From the NCBI GenBank assembly GCA_910589415.1, contig OU342637.1:39958162-40022161 (forward strand): 64,000 bases of DNA, given 5' to 3'. Made by a program: the position numbers and the translations under genes. Positions 5,131-63,671 of this stretch are shown here, in pieces. The notes under the pieces are model-generated. The model searched no databases and was not told the origin of the DNA. It saw only the letters and a program-made list of their open reading frames with translations. The DNA is from Malachius bipustulatus. Taxonomy: Eukaryota > Arthropoda > Insecta > Coleoptera > Melyridae. How positions within the stretch are numbered: position 1 is the first letter of the stretch; each line of letters starts with the position of its first letter.

Positions 5131-5995
5131 CCGGGTGTCCCAGACTTAATTGACCAGGCCATATCTCATATATAGGTTGAGATAATCGAGCCGAATAAAA
5201 GGCATATTATTATAATTTTTCAAGATGTATAACATGACAGCATGAAAACAATCCCCACTTGAACATCCCCTAAGTTACAGCCCCCACCCTTAAAAAAATG
5301 AATAGCACCCTGTATATATTTTTGTATATTCAAAACTAGTATTCGATTGTCTATTCAGATGATTTTTCAGATTCAAAATTGATTGAGAAATAACCAAGAA
5401 AAAGTTCATCAAGGTGGTCATGACTTTTTATCTTAACTTTCTCTGGATGACTTTTGCTGTCAAAATTTATCAATATTTAGTCATAGTTTTTAACAGGCAG
5501 GTGATAGTTATTATTATAATTAAAGTCCAAACAATTTATTTAACAATTCTGATTTATTGGGAAATTTCAAAAAATAAAACAAGAGACAAAGCACTTTATC
5601 ATGAACCTTAATGATGACTGTGACCTGCTAATTAAAAACTATGACCAAAATATTGATAAATTTTGACAGCTAAAGTCATCCAGAGAAAGTTCAGGTAAAA
5701 AGTCATGACCACCTTGATGAACCTTTTCTTGGTTATTTCCCAACCAATTTTGAATCTGAAAAATCATCTTAATAGAGAATCGAATACTGGTTTTGAATAT
5801 ACAAAAATTTATACAGGGTGCTATTCATGTTTTTAAGGGTGGGGGCTGTAACTTAGGGGATGTTCAAGTGGGGGTTGTTTTCATGCTGTCATGTTATACA
5901 GCTTGAAAAATTATAATAATATGCCTTTTATTCGGCTCGATTATCTCAACCTGTATATGAGATATGGCCTGGTCAATTAAGTCTGGGACACCCGG
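5131..5995. mobile_element. MITE with ~385-bp inverted arms (CCGGGTGTCCC ends)
   Basis: Starts TA|CCGGGTGTCCCAGACTTAA and ends in the inverted copy before TA at 5996. The arms are near-identical for about 385 bp and include phrases such as catgacagcatgaaaacaa and its complement. The center is a short AT-rich loop. GGGTGTCCC termini plus TA duplication are characteristic of insect mariner-derived non-autonomous elements. No intact ORF. Confidence 0.85.
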
Positions 5996-12350: not shown

Positions 12351-13040
12351 TTACTTTACTACTACTACTATGTCTCGCGTTCATGTCATCATGTCATGTC
12401 ACTCACTATTCAGTATCAGTTTCGTTGTTTCGTTCGTTTCCGTTCCGTTCCGTTTCAGCTTCAATTATTCGTCTTCGTCATGTTCACGGCAGGGTGCGGG
12501 GTGCATATAATATAAAACATAAAACAAATGGCTAATTGGATACCGACTAACAACTGATTGATTAGTGACTATCACTATTTACTCTATTACTAGGTAATTA
12601 CTAATTATACATAGTACATGCAGTACCTACAGTATTATATCTATAATCATACATGTCGCTTTTTAAATAAATACACGTGGCTTTGTTACTCGTTGGTGCG
12701 GTTACGTCAACGTCTGGTGTCTAGTGTACTATTAACGTAAGATACATGACCTGGAACACATGTAGAGGTGAACGTGAGTCCTGAACAACTCATTTATCAG
12801 AAGTGAGGTTTGTTAATTTTAATTACACATTTATTTATTGTTCTTAAAAATGTGATATTTTACAGGTTTGCAACAACAATAATTATTCTTATTATTATCG
12901 TCTGCCTGGTGTTCAAGTTCAAACAGCGCCATCTTGAAGCAATCAAGCATTTTCATCAGTGTTTGTGTAAGTGTGATTTCTAAGATATTGGTCAAAAAAT
13001 TAATATCCATAGATAGTCCTCAATTTAAACGGCTTACAAT
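12351..13040 (+). other. Upstream region of the transposase gene
   Basis: No ORF is recognised. The pyrimidine-rich cgtttcgttccg-type repeats at 12420-12480 and a possible GT...AG untranslated intron between about 12800 and 12960 would fit a 5' leader of the gene starting at 13041. Promoter position cannot be assigned. Confidence 0.25.
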
Positions 13041-15155
13041 ATGTCGCAAAATTTACAAACAATGAACGTTAAAAATCGTTTATCACGAAAGCATTACAGA
13101 GTTGTTGCTAAAAATGTCCAACGAAAGTTATCATTGCTAGGAAGATCCTCTCTTATGCATAGAAAAAGGGAAGCTGTACATTCTTTTAGTGCTGATGCCA
13201 AAGGAGAAACATCACAATCTTCTGCTCTTTGTAATTCTGTCATACCTCTATGTCCTGCACCTCTAAATTATGTTTCAAATGTTAATTCTAGTTTATCAGC
13301 AACTGATGAGGATCAAAACACTTATAACCATTCAAATATTCAATGTATAAATAGTACAACTTTTCTTAAAAATGGAAACATGCTTTCCTTTAATGAAAAG
13401 CTCTCCAGATGGGCAATAGAAAATGACATTCCTCTGTCATCATTAGGTAAATTGCTACTAATTCTGTGTGAAAAACTACCTAATTTACCAAAAGATCCTA
13501 GAACGTTGTTGAAGACTCCAACACGTAATGTATTTAAAGGAATGGGCACTGGCTCTTACTACTATTTTGGTATATCTACTACTTTAGCACGTTTATGTTC
13601 AAAATATAATGTCAAATTATCTAGAAATGATGTTATTGAATTATCAGTTAATATAGATGGTCTCCCTCTGAGTAAGAGTACAGGTAGTTCTTTTTGGCCA
13701 ATACTTGGCATGGTAAAATCATCAGTAACTCAGTTAGATAATAAAGTTTTTCTCATTAGTCTCTATCATGGGTCATCAAAGCCTTCACCAAATTCATTTC
13801 TTGAAGATTTTGTTAATGAAAGTATTGAACTTATAAATAATGGACTTACAGCAGTAAATGATATAACATGCGGTTTTAGGGTTAGGATGTTAATATGTGA
13901 TGCTCCAGCAAAATCTTACATTTTGTCTGTTAAAGGGCATTCAGGTTATTTTTCCTGTACTAAATGCACCCAAGAAGGAGACTTATTTGATAATTTCGTT
14001 TGCTTCACCGAAGCAAATTATATAAACAGAACAGATTTGAAATTTCGTAATAAAACGCAACCAGAACACCACACTGGCACAACTCTGCTTGAGAACATTC
14101 CAAACTTTAATTTAATAGACAACATACCTTTAGATTACATGCACTTATCATGCTTAGGCGTTATGAAACGATTGTTGTGTCACAAACGTTATGGGTGGAT
14201 TTTTGGAAAGCCTCCTTTCAAAGTTAGAGCTCGTACTGTTCAGAATCTGAACGATCTTTTAATAAAATATAACAAGTATATACCAACAGAGTTTTCCAGG
14301 AAAACCAGAACCTTGAATGAAGCTAAGCGTTATAAGGCTACAGAATTTAGACTTTTTTTACTTTATGTTGGGCCAGTAGTTCTCAAGAAAGCCATGCCAA
14401 CAAAGTATTACCGAAATTTCGTGTGTTTGTCAGTAGCTACTTCAATATTAATAAGTAAAGAATATTCCGTGCAACCAAATTTCATTGATTATGCAGAAAA
14501 ACTCTTAAAAATATTTGTTACCAATTGTAAAGACTTGTATGGCCCGAGATTTCTGTCTCATAATGTTCATAATTTATTGCACTTGGTGGACTGTGTTAGA
14601 ATGTTTGGCCCTCTCGATAATTTCAGTGCATTTCCATTTGAGAATTTTATGCAAACATTGAAAAGAAAAGTTCATACACATTCAAAACCTCTTGAGCAAG
14701 TTATACGCAGAGTAATCGAAGATCAGAATACAAGAACTAATATCATCAGAGATAATTCTGAACACCAAAATTTAATTTTGAACATTAGTCACAGTGGAGG
14801 CACATTATTACCTGAGTGTACTTTTCCTCAGTTCAAGATATTGAAAACTTGTACTTTCCTTATCAATGTAAGCAGGCTTTGTGATCGATTTGTAGAATTA
14901 TACGATGAAACAGTATTAGAAGTAAGAAATTTTGCCACTTCATATTCTGGTCAGACTGTATTAATAGGAATCCAATAGGAACGGGTCGATGACTTGTTTT
15001 CGAAACCATGTGCTTCAAGATTAATAAATATATCCTGTATTGAAAGCATTAATGAAACATTAGTTGTCTTTGATATCAAATTAATAAAAAAGAAGCTGCT
15101 AATCTTACCTTTTGAAAATAAATTGGTTTCTTTACCATTACTACATAATATTTAA
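13041..15155 (+). CDS. Large DDE transposase-like protein with one in-frame TAG (KDZ/CACTA-related)
   Basis: The frame opens at ATG 13041 and is clear for 645 codons, then has TAG at 14976-14978. It stays open in the same frame for 58 more codons to TAA at 15153-15155. Motifs match an insect family of transposase-like proteins: NIDGLPLSKSTGSSFWP (candidate first Asp), MLICDAPAKSY (second Asp), a KGHSGYFSCTKC zinc-binding patch, IPLDYMHLSCLGVMKRLL, and FSAFPFENFMQTLK (candidate catalytic Glu). Such proteins cut and rejoin transposon ends; assignment to CACTA/EnSpm or KDZ groups is tentative. Position inside the CCCAAGTAGCA-ended element suggests it is that element's transposase. The TAG separates a short C-terminal tail ending in LPLLHNI. 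Confidence 0.75.
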
Positions 15156-15703: not shown

Positions 15704-16310
15704 TGTTACCACTCGGAAAACGCTGAGAGGTAGCGGTTTCCTCCTTAACCCTTTCGATTGCCGTTTCATCGTCAGTTCAGCACGAGCTGGGGACCCAAAA
15801 TAATTCTTGCTACGATTTTCAGCACCCGCGCTCTCTGATTGGCCGACTGCGTTCGACCAATGAGAGAGCGTGGGCAATTACCACCGACGTCACCTCATTA
15901 TCCCGGTAATTATCGCCGGCCGGATGACATAAAACCGGCCGGCCAAGTGCCGTTCACTCACTTACAGTCTAGTCTCTTCGTCCAGCGGTGGCTTAAGCCG
16001 TTCGGACTCGACTTTCACTTCGCCTAGTCTCTTCGTCCAGCGGTGGCTTAAGCCGTTCGGACTCGACAAAACGCACTCTTCGTCCAGCGGTGGCTTAAGC
16101 CGTTCGGACTCTCCATCGCACCACTCGCTCCGACTCGCCCGCCATCCAGCATCATCACCAGCCTGGCTATTTAAATTATTTCGTATTTTATTCACTTCAA
16201 CCGACTCACCATCTCCATCTTAAAAATTAGGACAATTGAGTTCTACTCGCATAGGTAACTCTCCGATACACCTGGCTCCTCCCCTGGACTGCGAGGGCCC
16301 TCTTGTATCA
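15704..16310 (+). repeat. Gypsy-like LTR, copy 1 (607 bp)
   Basis: Begins TGTTACCACTCGG and ends ...CTTGTATCA just before a primer binding site. It repeats at 19418-20024 with no difference seen. Inside are three imperfect copies of a ~50-bp unit containing cttcgtccagcggtggctta (about 15977, 16030, 16078). A TATA-like gacataaaacc lies at 15926-15936, suitable for a U3 promoter. Confidence 0.85.
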
Positions 16311-16312
16311 GT

Positions 16313-16330
16313 TGGCGCCCAACGTGGGGC
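16313..16330 (+). other. Primer binding site of LTR retrotransposon
   Basis: TGGCGCCCAACGTGGGGC lies two bases after the LTR end, the expected place for the tRNA primer binding site, and starts with the invariant TGG. The identical site is at 20027-20044. The same core (TGGCGCCCAACGTGG) occurs at 35413. The tRNA species was not determined. Confidence 0.8.
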
Positions 16331-16438
16331 TCAACTTCGTGGACGCGAAGGATTCGCGACCCTGACCTACCGGACCACCATCATAGTTCTTGGACTTAAA
16401 CCAAGTGGCGCCCATCACGATCACCGGCATCTAGCAAG

Positions 16439-17323
16439 ATGCCCCCGACGACAAGAAATCAAGCAGCAGCGACAACCACCACGACGACGTCGACGACAAC
16501 GAGAACAACCAGCGGGACTTCGAACGCCGAGAACCCGCCGTCCACAGCCACGATGCATCCGGCTATAACAGTTGAGGCGCTGGCAGCCACGATGAACCAG
16601 GCCTTCGCAGCGATGATCCCGGTGCCGGCTCCGAGAAGACCTAGACGACCTGAATTCGCCGGATTGGACCACCAATGCCCCAAGAGGTTCCTAGAGGAGT
16701 TCTCGAAGTTTGCAACCTCATTGGGCATCACCGAGGACGCGGACTGGGTGGCAGAGATCCGGGAGTGCCTGACGGGATCAGCAGCCAGTCAAATCGACCG
16801 CTGCCTCAGCTTTGCAGACCCGCGGCCTGCCGAGGTGGAGCAGCTATTATTGGACCACTTCGCCAGCCCAGATGTACTCCGCAGATTGAGATTCCACCTG
16901 GAGATGGAGCTGCAGCAGCCGTCGGAAGCCGTCGCCGATTTCGTCATGGCGAAGCGGCATCTATGCATGCGGTTACACCCGGAGGAAGACGACGCCGGCC
17001 ACTTGAAGCGGATCATTCCGCTCATGCGGCCGGAGCTGCGAACTTTTATTATGTTTCAGGACCCGCAGACGTTCGCAGACCTCTACACTGTCGCTAAGAA
17101 CCTGGAGGCGGCCTTCCCACCGACCAGCCGCAAGCCAGCGGCCCCGACTCCCGCACCCCGGGCACCCGCAGCCTCGACACCGCCGCCCTGCTGGCACTGT
17201 CGCGGGCCACATTGGAACAAGGACTGCCCCCGCCGCCCAGAGCAACGTCCGGGAAACGGGAGAAGCGCCGGCCCCACATACCACCAGGCGGCCGGCGCGA
17301 CATCGCAGCCCCAGCAGCATTGA
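16439..17323 (+). CDS. Gypsy-like gag protein, copy 1
   Basis: A 294-codon ORF starting at ATG 16439, about 110 bp after the primer site, so the start is well placed. The N-terminus is Thr/Ala-rich and low in complexity. The middle, with LTGSAASQIDRCL and HFASPDVLRRLRF, resembles a retrotransposon gag capsid region. The C-terminus has a CCHC-type zinc knuckle (CWHCRGPHWNKDC, CX2CX3HX4C) that would bind RNA. It forms the structural particle protein. The coding region is GC-rich, unlike its surroundings. It is identical to the copy at 20153-21037. Confidence 0.8.
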   Translation: MPPTTRNQAAATTTTTTSTTTRTTSGTSNAENPPSTATMHPAITVEALAATMNQAFAAMIPVPAPRRPRRPEFAGLDHQCPKRFLEEFSKFATSLGITEDADWVAEIRECLTGSAASQIDRCLSFADPRPAEVEQLLLDHFASPDVLRRLRFHLEMELQQPSEAVADFVMAKRHLCMRLHPEEDDAGHLKRIIPLMRPELRTFIMFQDPQTFADLYTVAKNLEAAFPPTSRKPAAPTPAPRAPAASTPPPCWHCRGPHWNKDCPRRPEQRPGNGRSAGPTYHQAAGATSQPQQH

Positions 17324-17456
17324 GAGCAGACACATCCAGCCCCCTGGAGGAGCACACCTCCGGACGACTCCCCGAACTGCCGGATCTGCTGTCCAGGGAC
17401 CCCGAGGAGGACTCAGCCCGCAGCCATGGGGAAGACATCGGTCGCCTCTGCCTCGC

Positions 17457-18550
17457 TGCCTTGGACGGGGGCCATCCAGGTGCCCAGCCAGTGCTAACTC
17501 CAGGTGCCCAGCCGGTGCCACCTCCAGGTGCCATACCGGCGCTGCCTCCAGGCGCCCTCCTAGCACCACCTCCAGGTGCCGGACCAGCACCACCTCCAGG
17601 TGTCCAGCCGGTGCCGCATCCAGATGACAGAAGACCACCACCACCTCCAGGTGCCCAGCCGGTGCCGTATCCAGGTGCCAGGACAGCGTCACCTTCAAGG
17701 GCGAGACCGGCGCCACCTTCGAGGGCCAGACCCGCACCGCCTCCAGGTGCCCAGCCAGCGCCCCTTCCAAGGGCCAGACCAGCGTCACCTCCAGGTGCCC
17801 AGCCGGTGCCGCCTGCAGGTGCCAGACCAGCGTCACCTCCAGGTGACAGACTAGCACCACCACCAGGTGCCCAGCCAGCGCCCCTTCCAAGGGCCAGACC
17901 CGCGCATCCTCCAGGTACCAGACCGTCGACACCTCCAGGTGCTAGCACAGCGTCACACCCAGGTGCCAGACCCGCGCCACCTCCAGGTGCCCAGCCGGTG
18001 CCTCCTCCAGGTGCCACGCCAGCACCACGTCCAGGTGCTAGACCAGAATCTCCTCCAGGTGCCGGACCAGAGCAACTTCCGAGGGCGAGACCAGCGTCAC
18101 CTCCAGGTGCCAGACCCGCGCCACCTCCAGGTGTCACACCAGCACCACCTCCAGGTGCCACACCAGCACCACCTCCAGGTGCCACACCAGCACCGCCTCC
18201 AGGTGCCACGCCAGCACCACCTCCAGGTGCTAGACCAGAATCTCCTCCAGGTGCCGGACCAGAGCAACTTCCGAGGGCGAGATCAGCGTCACCTCCAGGT
18301 GCCAGACCCGCGCCACCTCCAGGTGTCATACCAGCACCACCTCCAGGTGCCACACCAGCACCACCTCCAGGTGCCACACCAGCACCGCCTCCGGGTGCTA
18401 GACCAGAATCTTCTCCAGGTGCCAGACCAGAGCAGTTTCCGAGGGCGAGACCAGCGTCACCTCCAGTTACCAGAACCGCGCCGCCTCCAGATGCCGTATC
18501 GGCGCTGCCTCCAGATGCTGTACCGGCGCTGCCTCCAGGCGCCCTCCTTG
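17457..18550 (+). repeat. 24-bp minisatellite replacing the pol region, copy 1
   Basis: About 45 tandem variants of a 24-bp unit of the form CCTCCAGGTGCCACACCAGC plus 4 bases. In the plus frame it reads as repeats of PPGATPAP. It sits where protease, RT and RNase H should lie, between gag and an integrase C-terminal remnant. Some higher-order repeats (about 190 bp) are visible, for example around 18040 and 18230. The long open frames on both strands here result from the 24-bp periodicity. Confidence 0.85.
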
Positions 18551-19417: not shown

Positions 19418-20024
19418 TGTTACCACTCGGAAAACGCTGAGAGGTAGCGGTTTCCTCCTTAACCCTTTCGATTGCCGTTTCATCGTCAGTTCAGCACGAG
19501 CTGGGGACCCAAAATAATTCTTGCTACGATTTTCAGCACCCGCGCTCTCTGATTGGCCGACTGCGTTCGACCAATGAGAGAGCGTGGGCAATTACCACCG
19601 ACGTCACCTCATTATCCCGGTAATTATCGCCGGCCGGATGACATAAAACCGGCCGGCCAAGTGCCGTTCACTCACTTACAGTCTAGTCTCTTCGTCCAGC
19701 GGTGGCTTAAGCCGTTCGGACTCGACTTTCACTTCGCCTAGTCTCTTCGTCCAGCGGTGGCTTAAGCCGTTCGGACTCGACAAAACGCACTCTTCGTCCA
19801 GCGGTGGCTTAAGCCGTTCGGACTCTCCATCGCACCACTCGCTCCGACTCGCCCGCCATCCAGCATCATCACCAGCCTGGCTATTTAAATTATTTCGTAT
19901 TTTATTCACTTCAACCGACTCACCATCTCCATCTTAAAAATTAGGACAATTGAGTTCTACTCGCATAGGTAACTCTCCGATACACCTGGCTCCTCCCCTG
20001 GACTGCGAGGGCCCTCTTGTATCA
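19418..20024 (+). repeat. Gypsy-like LTR, copy 2 shared between two tandem internal regions
   Basis: Same length (607 bp) and sequence as 15704-16310 at a constant offset of 3714 bp. It acts as the 3' LTR of the first unit and the 5' LTR of the second. The second unit's primer binding site follows at 20027-20044. Confidence 0.85.
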
Positions 20025-20152
20025 GTTGGCGCCCAACGTGGGGCTCAACTTCGTGGACGCGAAGGATTCGCGACCCTGACCTACCGGACCACCATCATAG
20101 TTCTTGGACTTAAACCAAGTGGCGCCCATCACGATCACCGGCATCTAGCAAG

Positions 20153-21037
20153 ATGCCCCCGACGACAAGAAATCAAGCAGCAGCGACAACCACCACGACG
20201 ACGTCGACGACAACGAGAACAACCAGCGGGACTTCGAACGCCGAGAACCCGCCGTCCACAGCCACGATGCATCCGGCTATAACAGTTGAGGCGCTGGCAG
20301 CCACGATGAACCAGGCCTTCGCAGCGATGATCCCGGTGCCGGCTCCGAGAAGACCTAGACGACCTGAATTCGCCGGATTGGACCACCAATGCCCCAAGAG
20401 GTTCCTAGAGGAGTTCTCGAAGTTTGCAACCTCATTGGGCATCACCGAGGACGCGGACTGGGTGGCAGAGATCCGGGAGTGCCTGACGGGATCAGCAGCC
20501 AGTCAAATCGACCGCTGCCTCAGCTTTGCAGACCCGCGGCCTGCCGAGGTGGAGCAGCTATTATTGGACCACTTCGCCAGCCCAGATGTACTCCGCAGAT
20601 TGAGATTCCACCTGGAGATGGAGCTGCAGCAGCCGTCGGAAGCCGTCGCCGATTTCGTCATGGCGAAGCGGCATCTATGCATGCGGTTACACCCGGAGGA
20701 AGACGACGCCGGCCACTTGAAGCGGATCATTCCGCTCATGCGGCCGGAGCTGCGAACTTTTATTATGTTTCAGGACCCGCAGACGTTCGCAGACCTCTAC
20801 ACTGTCGCTAAGAACCTGGAGGCGGCCTTCCCACCGACCAGCCGCAAGCCAGCGGCCCCGACTCCCGCACCCCGGGCACCCGCAGCCTCGACACCGCCGC
20901 CCTGCTGGCACTGTCGCGGGCCACATTGGAACAAGGACTGCCCCCGCCGCCCAGAGCAACGTCCGGGAAACGGGAGAAGCGCCGGCCCCACATACCACCA
21001 GGCGGCCGGCGCGACATCGCAGCCCCAGCAGCATTGA
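20153..21037 (+). CDS. Gypsy-like gag protein, copy 2
   Basis: 294 codons, translation identical to the copy at 16439-17323, with the same zinc knuckle and start context. It lies downstream of the shared LTR. No substitution is visible against copy 1, so the duplication is either very recent, gene-converted or an assembly duplication. Confidence 0.8.
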   Translation: MPPTTRNQAAATTTTTTSTTTRTTSGTSNAENPPSTATMHPAITVEALAATMNQAFAAMIPVPAPRRPRRPEFAGLDHQCPKRFLEEFSKFATSLGITEDADWVAEIRECLTGSAASQIDRCLSFADPRPAEVEQLLLDHFASPDVLRRLRFHLEMELQQPSEAVADFVMAKRHLCMRLHPEEDDAGHLKRIIPLMRPELRTFIMFQDPQTFADLYTVAKNLEAAFPPTSRKPAAPTPAPRAPAASTPPPCWHCRGPHWNKDCPRRPEQRPGNGRSAGPTYHQAAGATSQPQQH

Positions 21038-21170
21038 GAGCAGACACATCCAGCCCCCTGGAGGAGCACACCTCCGGACGACTCCCCGAACTGCCGGATC
21101 TGCTGTCCAGGGACCCCGAGGAGGACTCAGCCCGCAGCCATGGGGAAGACATCGGTCGCCTCTGCCTCGC

Positions 21171-22187
21171 TGCCTTGGACGGGGGCCATCCAGGTGCCCA
21201 GCCAGTGCTAACTCCAGGTGCCCAGCCGGTGCCACCTCCAGGTGCCATACCGGCGCTGCCTCCAGGCGCCCTCCTAGCACCACCTCCAGGTGCCGGACCA
21301 GCACCACCTCCAGGTGTCCAGCCGGTGCCGCATCCAGATGACAGAAGACCACCACCACCTCCAGGTGCCCAGCCGGTGCCGTATCCAGGTGCCAGGACAG
21401 CGTCACCTTCAAGGGCGAGACCGGCGCCACCTTCGAGGGCCAGACCCGCACCGCCTCCAGGTGCCCAGCCAGCGCCCCTTCCAAGGGCCAGACCAGCGTC
21501 ACCTCCAGGTGCCCAGCCGGTGCCGCCTGCAGGTGCCAGACCAGCGTCACCTCCAGGTGACAGACTAGCACCACCACCAGGTGCCCAGCCAGCGCCCCTT
21601 CCAAGGGCCAGACCCGCGCATCCTCCAGGTACCAGACCGTCGACACCTCCAGGTGCTAGCACAGCGTCACACCCAGGTGCCAGACCCGCGCCACCTCCAG
21701 GTGCCCAGCCGGTGCCTCCTCCAGGTGCCACGCCAGCACCACGTCCAGGTGCTAGACCAGAATCTCCTCCAGGTGCCGGACCAGAGCAACTTCCGAGGGC
21801 GAGACCAGCGTCACCTCCAGGTGCCAGACCCGCGCCACCTCCAGGTGTCACACCAGCACCACCTCCAGGTGCCACACCAGCACCACCTCCAGGTGCCACA
21901 CCAGCACCGCCTCCAGGTGCCACGCCAGCACCACCTCCAGGTGCTAGACCAGAATCTCCTCCAGGTGCCGGACCAGAGCAACTTCCGAGGGCGAGATCAG
22001 CGTCACCTCCAGGTGCCAGACCCGCGCCACCTCCAGGTGTCATACCAGCACCACCTCCAGGTGCCACACCAGCACCACCTCCAGGTGCCACACCAGCACC
22101 GCCTCCGGGTGCTAGACCAGAATCTTCTCCAGGTGCCAGACCAGAGCAGTTTCCGAGGGCGAGACCAGCGTCACCTCCAGTTACCAG
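21171..22187 (+). repeat. 24-bp minisatellite, copy 2, truncated
   Basis: Identical to 17457-18473 at offset 3714. It stops within a unit after cctccagttaccag at about 22187, where unrelated sequence begins. The integrase remnant and 3' LTR expected downstream are absent. Confidence 0.85.
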
Positions 22188-22435
22188 AAAAATCGGATAA
22201 TTTTCATCACCCTGTATTAAAATTTACTCCACATAGTAGGATACAATGTGAAAAGTTAGGATAGGGACATGTAAACCGTTTTTAGATATCTTGAGCCGTT
22301 CTAGTTCTAGACTGCTTTGAAGTTGAAAATTTTCGATTTTCACTTGTTTATAACTCATAAACCGCTCAATCTAAATTCCAGTGGTGAAAACCACCTGTAT
22401 TCGATTTCTTCAGACATTTAAAAAATATAATATTT
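22188..22435. other. Junction region with a mariner-type end
   Basis: Starts with aaaaatcggataattttcat and then CACCCTGTA, the outward end of a mariner-type terminal repeat whose other end is not seen. The remainder is AT-rich noncoding DNA. It marks a deletion or insertion that truncated the second Gypsy copy. Confidence 0.45.
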
Positions 22436-28738: not shown

Positions 28739-31700
28739 CTACTCGATGGGTAGCAACGCTAATTTGTTTATTCCACGTTTCACTGCACTATTTTTTGTCT
28801 TGATGGTGACGACTCTCGTAACATTGTCCTTGCCGGGGTGAATCTCTAGAATCTTGCCTTACGGCCATAGCAATGGTGCAGTGCTTTCATCCTTTAGGAG
28901 GACGATGGAACCGACGTGGAAAGAGGCCGGCTTGTCGAATGCCACTTATTTCTTGTTTGTAGCTGGTTTAAATATTCATTTTTCCATCTGAACCAGAAGT
29001 GTTGTCCGATTTGCTGGAGGTGTCTGTACCTCTTCGTGTAGTTCGTTTGTGCATCCATCAGGTCTCTTTCGGGAATTGATGTCAATTGCTCGCCAATTAG
29101 GAAATGAGCTGGTGTTATAACCTCAAGGTCATTGGGATCGGGAGACATAGGAACTAATGGCCTTGAATTTAAAATTGCCTCGATTTGTGTAGCCAAAGTA
29201 TAAAACTCTTCGTAAGTTAAATGAGTAGCATTCATAACACGCTTTAAGCAGTGCTTAAAAGACTTTACGGCTGCTTCGTGTAAGCCGCCAAAGTGAGGCG
29301 ATCTTGCTGGCAAAAAATGCCATTTGATTTTTGAATGTGTCAAATAATTTTGCATGTTATTATCATTTTTGATTAAACCTTGAACCTTAATTAACTCGTT
29401 GTTGCAACCTACAAAATTTGTTGCATTATCAGTGTAGATATTAGAGCAAAGACCTCGTCTCGAGACAAATCGCTTTAGTAGGCTTAAAAAACCTTCGCTT
29501 GTTAAATCCGAAATTACCTCAATGTGTACCGCCTTGGTTACAAGACACACGAAAATGCATACGTAACCCTTTACTAATTTATTGGATCGCAATTTACTTG
29601 CCTTAAGGTCAAAAGGACCTGCGTAATCGATTCCAACGGAAAGAAACGGACGTGATGGTGTGAGACGAACGCTTGGTAACTCACCCATCTTTGGAATGAC
29701 ATTTGCATGAGGTTTACACCTGAAACAGGTTACACACTTCCTCAATAGCGATTTAACTACTTGTTTGCCATTAATTGGCCAATATTTTTGCCTAATATGA
29801 GATAAGGTACACTGAGCGCCAGAATGAAAGGTACGCTTATGCTCATGATCTACAACTAGATTCGTAAAAATATGTTTTGCTGGTAACACTATCGGATGTT
29901 TAACATCATACTGGTAGTTGGAATATTTTAACCTGCCGCCAAGTCTTATTACTCCTTGTTCATCGAGAAATGGAGATAATGACTTTAATTTACTTTTAGG
30001 TGACACACAATTGCTTGTTTTTAATGTCTTTAATTCACTAGCGAAATGTTCTGATTGTACTAACTTCACGAGAGCTGTCGTACTCCGTTCGATTTCATTT
30101 GTCGTCAAATGATTTTTAAGTCTCTCATCGACCGGTAATTTCAAATTATGAAAGAATCGCAGGCAATAACCAGCAACACGAATTAACTTATTCAAGTCGG
30201 AAAATTTCTCGAAAATACTTAAATCGTTGAATTCTTGCTCTTGAACCACGTGAGTCATTCGAATTCCCGGTATGTCGATTTTTTGGCTAGCGAAATGTGC
30301 TATGTTTGAATTTTCAGGCCACTTGTCGGTTTCAAAGAAAAATCTAGGACCATGCAACCATAGTTCGGAATGAACTAAATTTTTTAAGCTTGATCCGCGT
30401 GAAATTATATCGGCGGGGTTTTCCTGAGAAGGAACATGGTGCCAATCACGTATCTTAGTGAGTTGCTGAATTTCGGTCACTCTATTGGCTTCGAAAGTTT
30501 TCCAAGTTTTGGGTTCATTAGCGATCCAACACAATACAATTGTTGAATCTGTCCACAAAAAAGTACGGGTTATATCGAGTCGCAAAGCTTTTACACACTT
30601 TACATACAATCTCGCAAGCAAAAGAGCACCCATGAGTTCGAGTCGCGGCAACGATAACGACTTTAATGGACTAACTCTGGATTTCGCACAAAGTAAGTGA
30701 CTTTCAATTTTTGAATTGATATCTATTGAGCGAACGAAGATACAACAAGCATATGCTTGTTCACTTGCATCTGCAAAACCATGTATTTCGATTTCTTGTG
30801 GTTGCTTTACCAACACATGACGAGGAACTTGCATAATTCCGACTCGAGATATTTCATCTTTTAACTCTAACCATTTTGAAATTAAATTATCTGGAACTTC
30901 ATCGTCCCAATCAATATTTAATTGCCACAGTTTTTGAATAATCAATTTTGCCCTAACTGATAAAGGACCAAGGATTCCCAAGGGATCAAATATTTTAGCA
31001 ACGAATGAAAGTATCGTTCTTTTTGTAATCTTTCTTATATCGGAGGGAATATCTTGGGCGTTATATTCGAACTTATCGACCTTTGGCAACCATGAAATGC
31101 CGAGAGTTTTTACACTTGTATTGTCTGAGATAGAATATTTCGCACTGTCGCTATTATCATCTTCAATATTGTTTAGAACTCTTGGTTCATTAGATTGAAG
31201 CTTCCTCAACTTAAATCCGTACTCAGACAAAATTTGACAAATATTAGTTTTTAGCTTAACAAGAGAGTCGAGATCACTCGCTCCCGTGAGAAGATCGTCT
31301 ACGTAAAAATCCGAACGAATGGTACTCGTATCACTTTCAAATGGCGAATTTTCTTCGTTATCAATCGCTATTTGAACTAACGAGCGCGTTGACAAAAAAG
31401 ACGCTGAGGCCGTTCCGTAGGTAACCGTGTTTAATTGAAAATGTTTAACTTCTTCGTTAAGATTATTTCTCCAAAGAATTCTTTACAAACTTCGATGATC
31501 TGGATGTATCAAAATCTGACGATACATTTTTTCCAAATCTCCGATTAGCACTAAATTGTGCTTTCTAAAACGGATTATGATAGATAACAAATCTTCTTGA
31601 ACTGTAGCACCAACCTTCAAAATATTGTTTAATGATAAATTACTGGAGCTTTTGCATGCTGCATCAAAAACGACCCTAAGCTTCCTTGTCGTGCTTTCAG

Positions 31701-36695: not shown

Positions 36696-37254
36696 TAAAT
36701 TTTTCTTTCTTTAATCTTTAGATTAGTTTTTTCGATCGGGGACTTCTTATTTAATAAAAATAGGTAGGTATACCTACGTAGGTACCTAAAAGATATATAC
36801 AAATAGTTAGTGAAAACACAGTAACAGCAGTATGTTAAGAGTTAATTGGGAATTTTGTCTTAATTGAGGCTAAACGGAACTCTGTTTGCCAGCCAAGCTT
36901 TCGGAAAAATTAATTTTCCTCGACAGGGCTAAAATAATCGAAAATTCAATACATTAATAAAATTATATAATTAAATTCATACTTACTTACTGTGCAAGTG
37001 AGCTTCAATTAAAGCATTTCTTTTATAAAATTGCACTACCCTGACGACGGAAATAAATTTTTACGAAAGCCTGCGGCTGGCAAAGAGTTACATTTAATCG
37101 CTCTTAGTTAAGACAGAATTCACATTTAATAACCGTTAACATACTTTAGTTCAAACAAGTCTTTAAATAAATTCTGTCATGCTTCAATTTCAATTCTAAT
37201 TTAGTACAAACACTGTAAGTTACAAGAATTCTATTATATTTAATTGACAAATAT

Positions 37255-46387: not shown

Positions 46388-48253
46388 TCTTTATTTTATT
46401 TTTTTCAGCTGTAGTGGGTGTAAAACCTTCTTCATCAAAAACAGCAAAGACCCCACTTTCACCTGCGTAGGGACCGGGAACTGCGAAATCACGGTCGCCA
46501 CACGGAACGAGTGAGTATACTCTTATAGGTCTCTCTCCAGTTTATTATGTACAGGCCGGAACCGACGCGACGTAGGCGAACTCAGGCACAAATTTGTTTT
46601 TTTCCTATTTTTACAAGTAAATTTTCCACATTAAACCGTGTTAATGTGGACTACCACATTTTTCAGAACACCGGTGCCGGTGAGTCAGACAGCGGAGAGC
46701 TGGGGGAGATCAGCCGGGGTGGCGCCGGAAGGGTAAGCATTTTTCATTACGTGAACAACAACGTAACAAGTTACATTAGGCCCACAGGGTGCCAGCTTAT
46801 TGCTAGATTGAGATTGGCACTATCTACTCTATTGATAATCTCGTTACCTCTAATAAAGATACTCGGCGGAGTTTTATTTTATTTTATTTTTTTCAGCTGT
46901 AGTGGGTGTAAAACCTTTTTCATCAAAAACAGCAAAGACCCCACTTTCACCTGCGTAGGGACCGGGAACTGCGAAATCACGGTCGCCACACGGAACGAGT
47001 GAGTATACACTTATAGGTCTCTCTCCAGTTTATTATGTACAGGCCGGAACCGACGCGACGTAGGCGAACTCTGGCACAAATTTGTTTTTTCCTATTTTTA
47101 CAAGTCAATTTTCTACATTAACACGGTTTGTACTACATGTTTCAGAACAGCGGTGTTGGTGAGTCAGACAGCGGAGAGCTGGGGGAGATCGGCCGGGGTG
47201 GCGCCGGAAGGGTAAGCACTTTTCATTACGTGAACAACAACGTAACAAGTTACATTAGGCCCACAGGGTGCCAGCTTATTGCTAGATTGAGATTGGCACT
47301 ATCTACTCTATTGATAATCTCGTTACCTCTAATAAAGATACTCGGCGGAGTTTTATTTTATTTTATTTTTTTCAGCTGTAGTGGGTGTAAAACCTTTTTC
47401 ATCAAAAACAGCAAAGACCCCACTTTCACCTGCGTAGGGACCGGGAACTGCGAAATCACGGTCGCCACACGGAACGAGTGAGTATACACTTATAGGTCTC
47501 TCTCCAGTTTATTATGTACAGGCCGGAACCGACGCGACGTAGGCGAACTCTGGCACAAATTTGTTTTTTCCTATTTTTACAAGTCAATTTTCTACATTAA
47601 CACGGTTTGTACTACATGTTTCAGAACAGCGGTGTTGGTGAGTCAGACAGCGGAGAGCTGGGGGAGATCGGTCGGGGTGGCGTCGGAAGGGTAAGCACTT
47701 TTCATTACGTGAACAACAACGTAACAAGTTACATTAGGCCCACAGGGTGCCAGCTTATTGCTAGATTGAGATTGGCACTATCTACTCTATTGATAATCTC
47801 GTTACCTCTAATAAAGATACTCGGCGGAGTTTTATTTTATTTTATTTTTTTCAGCTGTAGTGGGTGTAAAACCTTTTTCATCAAAAACAGCAAAGACCCC
47901 ACTTTCACCTGCGTAGGGACCGGGAACTGCGAAATCACGGTCGCCACACGGAACGAGTGAGTATACACTTATAGGTCTCTCTCCAGTTTATTATGTACAG
48001 GCCGGAACCGACGCGACGTAGGCGAACTCTGGCACAAATTTGTTTTTTCCTATTTTTACAAGTCAATTTTCTACATTAACACGGTTTGTACTACATGTTT
48101 CAGAACAGCGGTGTTGGTGAGTCAGACAGCGGAGAGCTGGGGGAGATCGGCCGGGGTGGCGCCGGAAGGGTAAGCACTTTTCATTACGTGAACAACAACG
48201 TAACAAGTTACATTAGGCCCACAGGGTGCCAGCTTATTGCTAGATTGAGATTG
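46388..48253 (+). repeat. Exon-array block 2: four 479-bp tandem units
   Basis: Exon A copies 46409-46510, 46897-46998, 47376-47477 and 47855-47956; exon B copies 46667-46732, 47146-47211, 47625-47690 and 48104-48169. The units from 46897 on repeat at exactly 479 bp with very few differences. All exon copies keep open reading and consensus splice sites (tttttttcag| ... |gtgagt; tttcag| ... |gtaagc), and both exon types are multiples of three, so any number could be spliced in series without a frameshift. The last unit is interrupted at 48254 by a LINE. Confidence 0.75.
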
Positions 48254-57637: not shown

Positions 57638-58195
57638 TACAGGTGTCCCGTAAGTAATGGTCCGTGGTGAAATGGGAGATTCTTGGTTTAAAAATATTAC
57701 GATCTGACACTACTTGCTCTAACAAAATCTTGATAATAAAAAAAAAACAGGGTGGCAAAGTTGAGATTTAAAAATTTTCTTTTCAAAATATCTCGAAAAA
57801 TTGTACAGGTACGAACGTGAAAACTTGGGGATAGATGTTTTACGGTATGAGGAATCATAATTTGATATCCGTGTCGATGTATTTTATAGAGGGCGCCACT
57901 TAGGTCATGTTGACGACGTAAATGAACACATAACTTTTTTATCCTTCAGGCTATCGCGCATTTTGTGAAATATTTAAACTACATCATTCTTGAGAAAAAA
58001 AGATATACTGATTGTCAGTCTCAAAAGTTAGTAACAAACCGTAGGTAGGTAGGTCTTAATGAGTATAAAGACAAATCAATAGCCTGTCGTATTGGAGTCG
58101 GGTTTTAACCCATCGTCCTGACAGTTGTCAAGTCTGGAGTGCCCGAGAACCCAAATAAAGAGTTTTCGACTCAGGCAGCAACACACATCCAACCA

Positions 58196-58263
58196 GACTA
58201 CCAAAAGCACGGACGGCCGTTTCGGTCTCATTAGACCTCGTCAGCGTACTATATTGGAGAGTC
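58196..58263 (-). ncRNA. Type-I hammerhead ribozyme, copy 1
   Basis: Minus-strand core CTGACGA (58244-58238), helix II GGTCT-AATG-AGACC (58237-58224), GAAA (58223-58220), helix III C-G-G/C-C-G ending in the UC cleavage triplet GTC (58214-58212). Helix I pairs AGTACG (58250-58245) with CGTGCT (58211-58206), six pairs with one G-U, and extends through CCAA/TTGG and GACT/AGTC. The predicted cut is between 58212 and 58211. All invariant core bases are present. Helix III is a self-complementary ACGGCCGT with at most a 2-nt loop, so a dimer may be the active form. Confidence 0.85.
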
Positions 58264-58646
58264 CGGAAGGATATGAACCGCTGCATGAATCGAAAACCCT
58301 ATATGGAATCTCATTCAACCGGTTACCAGTGACCTCGAGACAGAGCGACATCTATCAAGAGAAACAACAGGCTCCCAGCCAAAACAAAACTCCAATGTGT
58401 ATTATGGGTTGCAGACACTCCAGGGGCTACGAGACTGACATCAAATATGCATATTAAAAAGCCGAAGTATACTCAAAAGTCACAACAAACCGTAGGTAGG
58501 TAGGTCTTAATGAGTATAAAGACAAATCAATAGCCTGTCGTATTGGAGTCGGGTTTTAACCCATCGTCCTGACAGTTGTCAAGTCTGGAGTGCCCGAGAA
58601 CCCAAATAAAGAGTTTTCGACTCAGGCAGCAACACACATCCAACCA

Positions 58647-58714
58647 GACTACCAAAAGCACGGACGGCCGTTTCGGTCTCATTAGACCTCGTCAGCGTAC
58701 TATATTGGAGAGTC
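58647..58714 (-). ncRNA. Type-I hammerhead ribozyme, copy 2
   Basis: Identical to copy 1 at offset 451. Predicted cut between 58663 and 58662 on the minus strand. Cleavage at both sites of a minus-strand transcript would release a 451-nt monomer. Confidence 0.85.
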
Positions 58715-58874
58715 CGGAAGGATATGAACCGCTGCATGAATCGAAAACCCTATATGGAATCTCATTCAACCGGTTACCAGTTAGTGGTTTTCGAGGTAAT
58801 TGACAGTTGATGATTTTCTCTACTGATACTGTTCAGAATATTTTGCTTACTGCTAGTAGTTGGAAAATTAAAAA

Positions 58875-59063: not shown

Positions 59064-59766
59064 TTGCCAAAATGCTGGTTATTATCTCAACCTACTGCAT
59101 TAAGATTTCTGATAATAAAAAAAATAGAAATAATGCAGGAGATTATTAAAACGTGATTATCTCGAAAACCACTAACTTTTGAGACTGACAACCGGTATAC
59201 CTTTTTTTCTTATCAATGATGTAGTTTTAATATTTCACAATAAAATGCGCGATATCCTGAAGGATAAAAAAGTCAACTTGTCGTCAACATGACCTAAGTG
59301 GCGCCCTCTATAAAATTCATCGACACGGATATCAAACTATGATTTCTCATACCGTAAAACATCTATCCCCAAGTTTTCACGTTCGTACCTGTACAATTTT
59401 TCGAGATATTTTGAAAAGAAAATTTTTTAATTTCAACTTTGCCACCCTGTATCTTTTTTATTATCAAGATTTTGTTAGAGCAAGTAGTGTCAGATCAAAA
59501 TATTTTTAAACCAAGAATCTCCCATTTCACCACGGACCATTACTTACGGGATATAATTGAGAAAAGTCAGGTTTTTTAAATTTATAGGAAGCGACATTAA
59601 TAATAATAATAAATCTCTTTATTGTACCATTAAATTCAACAATCATTGACTAGTAGAATAGCGTTGTAAGCGATGATAATAATACACAAAAAAAGAACAA
59701 ACCGCAGTAGTACACATAAATTCGTCTGCGTAATCAAAAGCTCATACGCAAGCGATTGACATTATA

Positions 59767-60972
59767 CAGGGTGTCCCATAATATGTGGGCAATCTCCCGG
59801 ATTTGGGTAAATTTCGTAAAAATAAATGAAAAAATAGCTATAAAATTAATTCCTCAGAGACACCCCTACAAAGATATTAGCTGTTGAAGTTGAGGGTTGA
59901 AAATCAATTTTTTGCAATAACTTTTTTATTTCTTGAACGATTTTGATAATTTTTGGCTTTATTCTGTATTATTTTGGACTGTTTAGAATAGTGTTTCATA
60001 ATCTTTGGTAGCACATACATAGACCTCGGGATGGCATAACCCCCTTATTCACTTGAAAGAAAACAATAAAAATAATAATTTTACAGTTTTTTAAGGTTAA
60101 TTTTCTTTTTATTTGACCTTTTTTACATAAAAAATGTATCATTATTTATTTCGATAGAGCGAACCGTTATCGAGATAAACGTCCTTCTAATAGGTGATGC
60201 GTCGCAGGAACTTTCTAAATGTCAAGTAAATTTTAACAAAATGGCTGACCTTTGACAGTAAATTGAGCAGGAAACAAAACAATAACTTAATTAAATACAC
60301 GTCAAATAGTGTCAAAGATTTCATTTCATGCAGGTTCAAATCTAACTGATTTTCTGCGTATTCAGCGTTTGTGTATAGCTCATTTTAAAATCAGTTAGAA
60401 TTGAATCTGCATGACATGAAATCTTTGACACTATTTGACGTCTATTTAATTAAGTTATTGTTTTGTTTCCTGCTCAATTTACTGTCATAGGTCAGCCATC
60501 TTGTTAAAATTTACTTGAAATTTAGAAAGTTCCTGCGACGCATCACCTATTAGAAGGACGTTTATCTCGATAACGGTTCGCTCTATCGAAATAAATAATG
60601 ATACATTTTTTATGTAAAAAATATCAAATAAAAAGAAAATTAACCTTAAAAAACTGTAAAATTATTATTTTTATTGTTTTCTTTCAAGTGAATGAAGGGG
60701 TTGTGCCATCCCGAGGTCTATGTATGTGCTACCAAAGATTATGAAACACTATTCTAAACAGTCCAAAATAATACAGAATAAAACCAAAAATTATCAAAAT
60801 CGTTCAAGAAATAAAAAAGTTATTGCAAAAAATTGATTTTCAACCCTCAACTTCAACAGCTAATATCTTTGTAGGGGTGTCTCTGAGGAATTAATTTTAT
60901 AGCTATTTTTTCATTTATTTTTACGAAATTTACCCAAATCCGGGAGATTGCCCACATATTATGGGACACCTG
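59767..60972. mobile_element. 1.2-kb near-perfect palindromic MITE (CAGGGTGTCCCATAATATG ends)
   Basis: TA at 59765 and 60973. The arms are about 590 bp each and almost identical; the centre is near 60370. The whole unit could form a single long hairpin, and read-through RNA would be a long double strand. No ORF. Mariner-type by ends and TA duplication. Confidence 0.85.
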
Positions 60973-61124
60973 TATAACACATTGATCACAATCACAAAAG
61001 CATCATAGAAAAACAAATAAAGGAAAATTTCTCTCATGCTAGTCATTGTATAAACTATACGTTGTCATTTACAATTATTATACATATCCTAGTGACAAGG
61101 TGCTAGGTTAATGAATCAATAAGG

Positions 61125-61143: not shown

Positions 61144-62110
61144 TAGGAAGACAGAATATCCATGGTAGAATAGGGTTCCAGGTCTGTGAGATCTTTTCGG
61201 AGATATGTCTTGAACTGAGAGAATCCAAAGGTTGCGGGGTCTATCCTGAAGTGATAAGAAATTTTATGGATGCGTACGTGAATGTCCTTTCGGTGGAAGT
61301 GAGATGGTAGTTTGAAAAGATTGAACCTGGTCTGATAATGGTGTGTGAATCGGAAACGATCACGTTTGGCTTAATTAATGTTTGTAGGAAATTTTTCATC
61401 GTCAGTCTTATATTTCGCAAACAGTTGTAAAGATAAGCACGGATGATACGCATCTTCTTTCACCAAACCTTCAGTCTTAGTAACAGAACATGAGTCGATG
61501 TTAGTAAAAATCAAATCTAGAATCCCGTTGTTGTCGTTAAGAACATCATTATGCTGGACAAGGCCATAAAAGCTAGATAGGTTATCAAGTGCCAATATTT
61601 TACTGCTAAAAGTACCACCGCTAGAGACGGCACGGAAATACTCTGGTAAGTTGAAGTCCCCACAAATATGAGGTCACAATAATTGTGAAGGTCCTCTATG
61701 GCTGTCAAACCGTCGCAAAAATCCTCATACATGTGAAACGGTAGCCCAGGCGGGACATATACAAGAACTATGCAAAAGTCGTAATCAGAAACGCAGACCC
61801 TCAGAGCAATTATATCGATTTGCGGGGTTCTAGAAGAAATCGAAGACGTATTCACAACCCTTGCACATAACTTTTTCCTTAGGGCGATCAGAACTCCTCC
61901 ACCTCTGGATACACCCAGTGCGGCGTAATCTCTGTCGGTCCTAAAGACATCAAAGTCGTCAGAAAACAGCTCTAGGTTACAAACAGAGCGGCCAATCCAA
62001 GTCTCTGAAAAGCAGATGATATCAAACTCTGTTATAAGCGACGACTTAAATAACTCGTGAGTTTTAGAATTAAGCCCCCTAACATTCTGATAGCATATGT
62101 TGATTGTAGT
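61126..62110 (-). pseudogene. LINE ORF2 remnant: endonuclease and C-terminal end
   Basis: Endonuclease segments in several frames: NVRGLNSKTHELF and ICFSETWIG (about 62110-61990), RGGGVLIALRKKL, then RVCVSDYDFCIVLVYVPP (61855-61517) and LDLIFTNIDS (61595-61371). These are AP-endonuclease motifs of Jockey/CR1-type LINEs. From about 61375 downstream the frame switches to the extreme C-terminus (FSQFKTYLRKDLTDLE), so the RT has been deleted. Frameshifts occur near 61610 and 61860. Confidence 0.7.
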
Positions 62111-62230
62111 CTCAAATGTTGAAACCCTGCTTCATGACTGAGCAAGCACATTATCACGGGATTCATTACAACCTGGTATTTCGTTATCAGACTGACCAAC
62201 ATAGCATGACTCGGGAGAAATGCATAGCTG

Positions 62231-63671
62231 CTATTGCGTTGACAACACGATAATACGCAATCTCTCTTTCTGTTCAACGAGTGCCACGCACTTGTGGTCC
62301 CAAGCAGCATGAGCACAATCAATATCGGTTCTCCCATCGTTCCTAAGTGCAACGCAGTTAACACATCTAAGAACAGTGGCCTTGCAATTTTTTACAACCT
62401 GATCCTCACCACATCTGGGACAACAAAGTGAACCGGAACATACCCTTGCAGAATGATTAAATTTTGAACATTTAAAGCACCTGAGCATCTCAATAGCATC
62501 GTAAACTATACAACTATTATATCCCACAAAAACACTTCCAGATTTCATAACATTATTATAAGATTCGGTGTCGATTTCTACGAGGGCCTGAAAGACGTCA
62601 TCATGTTTTTTTGTACGCCAAAACTTAAGAAGCCTACACTGAGATTGATCGACGATAAGGTGTTGATTCATGCCCACAAAATATCTCATAAAAGACGCTT
62701 CATCTAGTTCCCCCGTAATACCAACAACTCGTACTTTGGGATTTACACCTTTGATCTCCTTAATTTCATATTCTCCAGAAAGTTTCTGTTCAGCAGCCTT
62801 TTTAAAATTCTCACTATCATTTCTAGATCTGCATCCTACCAAAACACCACCATCCTTCACATTTCTAATCTTGGACAGCTGAAAACCAGACGTTGTAGGA
62901 TCTATATTACGTAAAATCACGGATTTCGTCTCCGTATTGCTCTGCACTTTCTTTGGTTTTATTAACAGGGCTGGTTTTGTTTTATTCTGTACTACGCTAG
63001 AATACGGGACTATTGCAGTAGCCTTCGTCGATGAACCGGTACCAGAAATTGCTCCCTGAACAGCAGTGTTCACCTTGGTCTCCAATGAAGATGAGAATTT
63101 GTCTGACAGCTCCGATATTTTCTTTTCTAGTTGAGACAACACACCAACCTTTATTTTCTCAATTGCTTCTATTTCTAAGACTGCTGACAGCAAAACTGTC
63201 GTCAGCGCGACGACCTCTGTTGGACTTGGTGCCCTGAAGGCAAACATCACAAAAGAACAGAATATTCTTCTTGGCGACCAAAACTCTATACTCCTCTTCG
63301 GACAAAGATGCGCACTTGTAGTGGAAAGATTGCTTGCAGTCTCCACCGCAAACAACTAAACTGTCCGGTCCAACCTTCTCAGTGCATCGGGCGCAACCCG
63401 CCAATGCAGCATCCCTAGGTCGCGCCCCAGAAGAAGCAGGCCCGGTCACGAGAGAAACATCCGAGGTCTCCGACAGACTACGTCCACGCTTCCTCTCCGA
63501 GATACAGGCTCCGCAGTAAAACTTCTCACCAACCTCATCCATGTATGATAGATCTCGTGTAGTCAAGTTCATACATGACGCATGGAAGGCTCCCTTGCAG
63601 TCCGCACAAGAAATAGAACCCTGTTGGGACCCAATGTTCAATGTGCATTTTTGGCATGTTTTTGTAGGCAT
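62231..63671 (-). pseudogene. LINE ORF1 with PHD-like and CCHC zinc motifs, frameshifted
   Basis: From ATG 63671: two PHD-like Cys/His clusters (CQKCTLNIGS... HASC ... YCGAC; then CARCTEKVG ... HYKC ... FCDVC) in the first 170 residues. A frame change between 63240 and 63160 leads into a coiled coil (LSQLEKKISELSDKF), a central domain and CCHC knuckles near the C-terminus (CFKCSKFNHSARVC, CCPRCGEDQ, CVNC). It is an RNA-binding ORF1 protein of CR1/Jockey-type elements, where PHD-like ORF1s are known. The frameshift makes this copy defective. Confidence 0.8.

Follow-up and report, generated by a model that had tools for sequence, protein, structure and literature searches.

In one arm of an inverted-repeat DNA element, we found an insertion that is very probably (we would put it at roughly 0.87) a recently inserted non-LTR retrozyme of the metazoan type, built of a 451-nt unit with a type I hammerhead ribozyme and copied, as a circle, by a borrowed enzyme. 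A preliminary description of this DNA had called the element retrozyme-like, non-coding and non-autonomous, with type I hammerheads, and this characterization holds: the hammerheads are complete, and no notable open reading frame (ORF) is present. Elements of this kind are already known, also from insects. What is new here is the surviving empty site and a homology between target and unit at the point where copying started. The window, i.e., the whole stretch of DNA that was analysed, is 64 kb long, and the features on which our argument is built are the following.

57646..58032, resuming at 58786, plus strand: left arm of the inverted-repeat DNA element that hosts the insert (aligned to the inverted 59171-59551 over 390 columns, identity 92.05%)
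58020..58028, plus strand: target copy of CTCAAAAGT, to the left of the insert, which may have served as primer region; common to 58472-58480 with a shift of one base
58026..58032, no strand: left copy of the target duplication, AGTTAGT (true duplication 4 to 7 bp)
58033..58781, minus strand: retrozyme insert, recognized by the exact 298-bp repeat at offset 451 and by the sister-arm empty site
58778 (if the duplication is 7 bp) to 58781 (if it is 4 bp), minus strand: right end of the insert
58033..58330, minus strand: first copy of the 298-bp repeated part, identical to 58484-58781
58206..58250, minus strand: type I hammerhead, copy 1 (RF00163 at 25.9 bits, and descriptor), predicted cut between 58212 and 58211
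58212..58662, minus strand: predicted 451-nt RNA, cut to cut, of putatively circular form (GC 0.45, minimum free energy -169.5)
58472..58480, plus strand: unit copy of CTCAAAAGT, immediately upstream of the copying start
58484..58781, minus strand: second copy of the 298-bp repeated part, identical to 58033-58330
58657..58701, minus strand: type I hammerhead, copy 2 (RF00163 at 25.9 bits, and descriptor), predicted cut between 58663 and 58662
58779..58785, no strand: right copy of the target duplication, AGTTAGT, the first three bases of which also match the unit
59161..59551, minus strand: right arm of the host element, in which 59161-59183 is the unoccupied target, CTCAAAAGTTAGTGGTTTTCGAG on the minus strand

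The insert (58033-58781) comprises 1.66 head-to-tail copies of the 451-nt unit. The 298 bp of 58033-58330 recur exactly at 58484-58781, 451 bp further on, and the element is therefore a partial tandem of a single unit, rather than two terminal repeats enclosing an unrelated centre. Two identical repeats of 296 bp, in a repeat-middle-repeat arrangement regarded as a distinctive compact form, had been described previously; the identity stands, but the length is 298 bp, and the arrangement dissolves into 1.66 tandem units of a 451-nt monomer. Not a single difference separates the two copies over these 298 bp, and the insertion looks young, as judged from its sequence. The GC content of the unit is 45.45% (0.4545), and the 64-kb window holds no further copy of the unit beyond the insert. 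As was likewise observed before, the repeats lack TG...CA, since they start with AACAAACC and finish with TTACCAGT, and no ORF of note exists in the element: four ATG-initiated ORFs reach at least 50 aa, the longest having 52 aa, and the longest run from stop to stop spans 111 codons on the plus strand. LTR ends, a primer site, a purine tract and coding sequence are all absent from the insert (primer site and purine tract as assessed by eye).

The retrozyme interrupts the left arm of its host element. The right arm is uninterrupted and reads, on the minus strand from 59183 to 59161, CTCAAAAGTTAGTGGTTTTCGAG; with the insert taken out, the left arm gives exactly the same sequence, which demonstrates a true insertion with a target duplication of at most AGTTAGT. 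This unoccupied sister site, with a single AGTTAGT, lies only about 0.4 kb past the right end of the insert. The 6-bp duplication GTTAGT reported earlier is indeed present, but the match extends over one more base (AGTTAGT). Since AGT also occurs in the unit at this point, the duplication proper measures between 4 and 7 bp. The host element, in turn, sits between what look like, by their sequence, separated parts of one minus-strand LINE. On one side, a minus-strand ORF at 55552-57615 matches RVT_1 (Pfam); the presumed upstream parts at 61517-63355 contain ORFs without a Pfam match, so that the LINE assignment there is our own reading. Beside the host element, a stretch of about 1.2 kb (59762-60977) is a near-perfect inverted repeat, which matches its own reverse complement at 96% over 1221 columns.

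Both copies of the repeat carry a complete hammerhead on the minus strand, as the preliminary description had stated. The Rfam model Hammerhead_1 (RF00163) matches at 58250-58206 and at 58701-58657, in each case over the full model (1-45) and with 25.9 bits, which is below the curated gathering cut-off of 34 bits; when all 4227 Rfam families are searched over the entire 64 kb, the E-value is 0.053, and for the 801 bp of 58000-58800 alone it is 0.00066. At gathering score, none of the 4227 families matches anywhere in the 64 kb, and within 58000-58800 the two hammerheads are the only matches at E up to 10, and the opposite strand gives no ribozyme. A strict descriptor (core, helix I of at least 5 bp, helix II of at least 4 bp, helix III of at least 2 bp) detects exactly two sites on the two strands of the window, namely these hammerheads, and none in 200 dinucleotide shuffles. 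In relaxed form (helix I of at least 4 bp, helix II of at least 3 bp), it again detects two sites in the window, compared to one in 200 window shuffles taken together. It had been suggested that a covariance-model score below threshold would refute this reading of the element. Both sites were matched by the model and both score below its threshold, but we judge this rule too strict, because the core and helices I to III are complete in both copies and the sites are not chance matches.

Each hammerhead consists of helix I (AGUACG/CGUGCU), the core CUGACGA, helix II (GGUCU-AAUG-AGACC) followed by GAAA, and a helix III of two pairs, capped by the self-complementary tetraloop GGCC; cleavage is predicted after GUC. 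Such a two-pair helix III with tetraloop has been called similar to invertebrate hammerheads in the account of PMC7229834. Helix I can be extended past an internal loop by CCAA/UUGG and then by a further stretch of 7 pairs, and both this internal loop and a 4-nt loop II are present at the sequence level. Both the 45-nt motif and the circle mispair part of the core in their lowest-energy folds (GCUG with CGGC); for the motif, this fold reaches -13.8 kcal/mol compared to -8.4 kcal/mol for the active fold, in a calculation that omits core and tertiary contacts.

The predicted cut sites, 58663/58662 and 58212/58211, are spaced by 451 nt, in agreement with the distance given before. The circle would therefore run from 58662 down to 58212 and close by joining 58212 to 58662, while the junction originally proposed, 58211 to 58663, names the bases that lie just outside. 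Folded as a circle, the minus strand reaches a minimum free energy of -169.5, compared to a shuffle mean of -120.6 (SD 6.2, z -7.9, 100 shuffles), and the plus strand has a z of -3.6 (100 shuffles); a repeat run with 40 shuffles each gave -8.15 for the minus and -3.05 for the plus strand. The ribozyme-bearing strand is the better-folding strand. Among 40 control segments of the window, two had a lower z than the minus strand, those starting at 5365 (-27.4) and at 36718 (-11.1), and both have near-equal energies on their two strands (-205.4 and -210.1; -116.6 and -119.1) and fold as inverted repeats would. The strand energy gap of the retrozyme amounts to 51.1 kcal/mol, a value that one of 59 controls reached and that may be due in part to base composition; the hammerhead strand forms 26 G-U pairs, compared to 4 on the opposite strand. 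The segment at 5365-5815 stands out by its extreme fold: its z is about -27 (40 shuffles), and its two strands have similar energies, as expected from a long inverted repeat.

We do not claim a Pol III promoter in the unit. Its best B-box-like site on the RNA strand, GGTTCATATCC at 58269-58279 (minus), has two mismatches to the Pol III consensus, and about 0.10 such sites per unit are expected at the window's own rate. Moreover, the RNA strand of the unit has runs of four or more T, which are expected to stop Pol III. ARAGORN detected no tRNA in the window.

The insert runs unbroken over the cut position twice. Its template was thus not a linear monomer released by cutting, but either circular or a multimer that had stayed uncut. 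If a tandem array was transcribed into a linear multimer that remained uncut and was copied without any RNA circle, this double crossing is explained as well as by a circle; the hammerhead core can, moreover, mispair. Complete ribozymes should cut multimers, however, and the RNAs of animal retrozymes, as they are presented in PMC7229834, are largely circular. Identical copies are moreover expected from one circle, though an even array would give them too. We consider the uncut multimer unlikely, and regard a circular RNA as the probable template.

The point on the unit at which copying started differs from the ribozyme cut, and the end was reached 1.66 laps later. The target to the left of the insertion and the unit before the start point have 9 nt in common (CTCAAAAGT), displaced by one base. 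In a comparison of target and circle that was chosen post hoc, after the match had been noticed, and that concerns one insertion, the true circle position shared at least 9 bases with 84 of 200,000 random targets from the window if shifts of up to 1 were allowed, and with 132 of 200,000 at shifts of up to 2; the true target reached 9 shared bases at 3 of all 451 circle positions (shift up to 1) or 5 of 451 (shift up to 2), the true one included; and with both chosen at random, at least 9 bases were shared in 28 and 50 of 200,000 cases, respectively. At the level of sequence, the 9-nt match fits target-primed copying of a circular RNA.

The retrozyme could have reached this site in the following way: Read-through transcripts of tandem copies would be cleaved by their own hammerheads, one cut at each, and a host ligase would close the resulting RNAs of 451 nt into circles. 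At a nicked chromosomal target, a borrowed reverse transcriptase would then copy such a circle over more than one lap. The plus-strand end of the target, ...CTCAAAAGTTAGT-3', would serve as primer, loosely annealed to the circle via CTCAAAAGT, and after 1.66 laps the far end would be joined with an overlap of up to 3 bp (AGT). Tentatively, we suggest that base-pairing might allow the circles to choose or stabilise the site at which they enter the chromosome: the nicked target may anneal imperfectly to the circle with its 3' end, through CTCAAAAGT and a short, poorly matched tail, and prime more than one lap, in which case the partial tandem with its arbitrary ends might directly record that, in an animal, an RNA circle was copied by target priming. 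This is a possibility, and we hold it with low confidence.

A primed and possibly target-primed circle that yields tandem cDNA has been proposed before, with a Penelope-like enzyme as the published candidate helper (both PMC7229834). According to what PMC7229834 and PMC7761336 (both 2020) set out, a model and candidate enzymes thus exist for the return of animal retrozymes to the genome, and a possible target duplication is mentioned in PMC8490949 for one Schistosoma repeat that bears a hammerhead or is related to such repeats. In the openly accessible literature on retrozymes and Penelope-like elements, to which most subscription papers and supplements do not belong, we found no comparable analysis of an empty site or a start point. 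The present locus hints at how copying was started: it shows exactly where on the unit copying began and stopped, sets limits to the length of the target duplication and provides a specific match between primer and template that can be tested.

A mobilising enzyme had been described as not evident in this window. The 671 window ORFs of at least 40 codons contain no GIY-YIG signature, as judged by a regular-expression scan, which is weak evidence; to this extent the statement holds, but other reverse transcriptases are present. Two of nine window ORFs that were compared with Pfam match RVT_1, and NCBIfam gave only weak reverse-transcriptase matches, below curated cut-offs, for three ORFs. A BEL/Pao ORF is located at 28897-31482, and a separate integrase ORF (Pfam) is found elsewhere in the window. 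In a protein search with the BEL/Pao ORF, 7980 candidates were scored, 1436 of them at E up to 1e-10; among the 120 matches listed, those with names come nearly all from insects (beetles, bees, ants and others, and one spider), and the best named one is from Anthonomus grandis (51% identity). By this measure, the genome is insect-like and perhaps that of a beetle. The window also contains a 649-aa ORF with a DUF4218 match (13029-14978; Pfam, E 3.1e-07), possibly from a DNA transposon, as well as the same tandem arrays together with a 307-aa ORF twice, at 15969-18495 and 19683-22188, 3714 bp apart, which may stem from a large-scale direct duplication or from the assembly. A 479-bp unit is repeated 3.9 times at 46390-48253 (98% match).

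Type I hammerheads and an occurrence in tandem are features of Penelope-like elements as well (PMC7229834, PMC7761336), and the insert could be imagined as the terminal-repeat remnant of such an autonomous element, the coding part of which was lost or absent. This we regard as quite improbable: the hammerheads described here have helices I and II of normal length and a two-pair helix III with tetraloop, in contrast to the minimal Penelope-like variants (PMC7761336), the insert is devoid of coding sequence, and no GIY-YIG motif appeared in the regular-expression scan of the 671 ORFs. Still less probable is a retrozyme of the plant LTR type, with two 298-bp LTRs around a 153-bp centre, that was moved by an LTR retrotransposon. 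LTR-type elements are represented in the window by the BEL/Pao and the integrase ORF. Identical repeats do flank a shorter middle, and the duplication could be 4 bp long, but the hammerheads are of type I, not III, the repeats with their ends AACAAACC and TTACCAGT are without TG...CA, the centre does not start with TGG (tRNA primer site) in either orientation, and no purine run precedes the second repeat (by eye). A satellite-like origin of the tandem on the spot, with unequal exchange or replication slippage as the mechanism, would resemble hammerhead satellites and has a parallel in the hammerhead-bearing tandem repeats of about 500 bp that PMC2837043 describes as satellite DNA of cave crickets, but can practically be dismissed, because the sister arm preserves the pre-insertion site with its single AGTTAGT and the whole 1.66-unit piece therefore arrived at once, unless the right arm lost an insert precisely.

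Sequence collections beyond the window were searched as well. Viral contigs yielded nothing with two element-specific patterns and two general patterns for type I hammerheads, prokaryote genome contigs gave no match to one pattern, and plasmid records gave none in a distant blastn search. These absences say little, because the collections are prokaryotic or viral.

We assign the element to the metazoan non-LTR retrozymes because its hammerhead class, its non-coding state, the lack of LTR features, its GC content and its tandem form all fit. With the LTR retrozymes of plants, as outlined in PMC7229834 and PMC7761336, it shares the non-autonomous state, a hammerhead in the repeated parts and a circle as the proposed intermediate, but the plant elements have type III hammerheads, real LTRs, a primer site, a purine tract and circles of 600-800 nt. 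Penelope-like elements, as portrayed in the same two articles, likewise combine type I hammerheads with a tandem arrangement, but are autonomous, encode a reverse transcriptase and carry minimal hammerheads, whereas the insert is non-coding. The pDo500 satellite of Dolichopoda cave crickets, likened here by its description in PMC2837043, likewise comes from an insect and has tandem repeats of about 500 bp that contain a hammerhead, possibly acting as a double hammerhead; pDo500 is satellite DNA, however, whereas the 1.66 units described here form one insertion that is flanked by a target duplication.

The non-LTR retrozymes of animals, with insects and crustaceans among the carriers, are described as tandem monomers of low GC content with type I hammerheads and circular RNAs (PMC7229834, Cervera and de la Pena 2020). 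Compared to what that article reports, the unit is slightly longer, with 451 nt, than the RNAs of 170-400 nt, and just above the repeat size of about 150-450 bp, and its 1.66 copies fall short of the two units of the dimers with which the published range of copies begins. Its GC content of 45.45% is below the 50% given in the text of PMC7229834 and marginally above the 45% of a figure legend there, and its target duplication of 4 to 7 bp, ambiguous because of AGT, compares with more than 4 bp, where such a duplication is present. The tandem form is close to the description in PMC7229834, and the insert shares with these elements a type I hammerhead in which a tetraloop caps the two-pair helix III, the non-coding tandem monomers, the GC content of 45%, a target duplication and a well-folded predicted circle.
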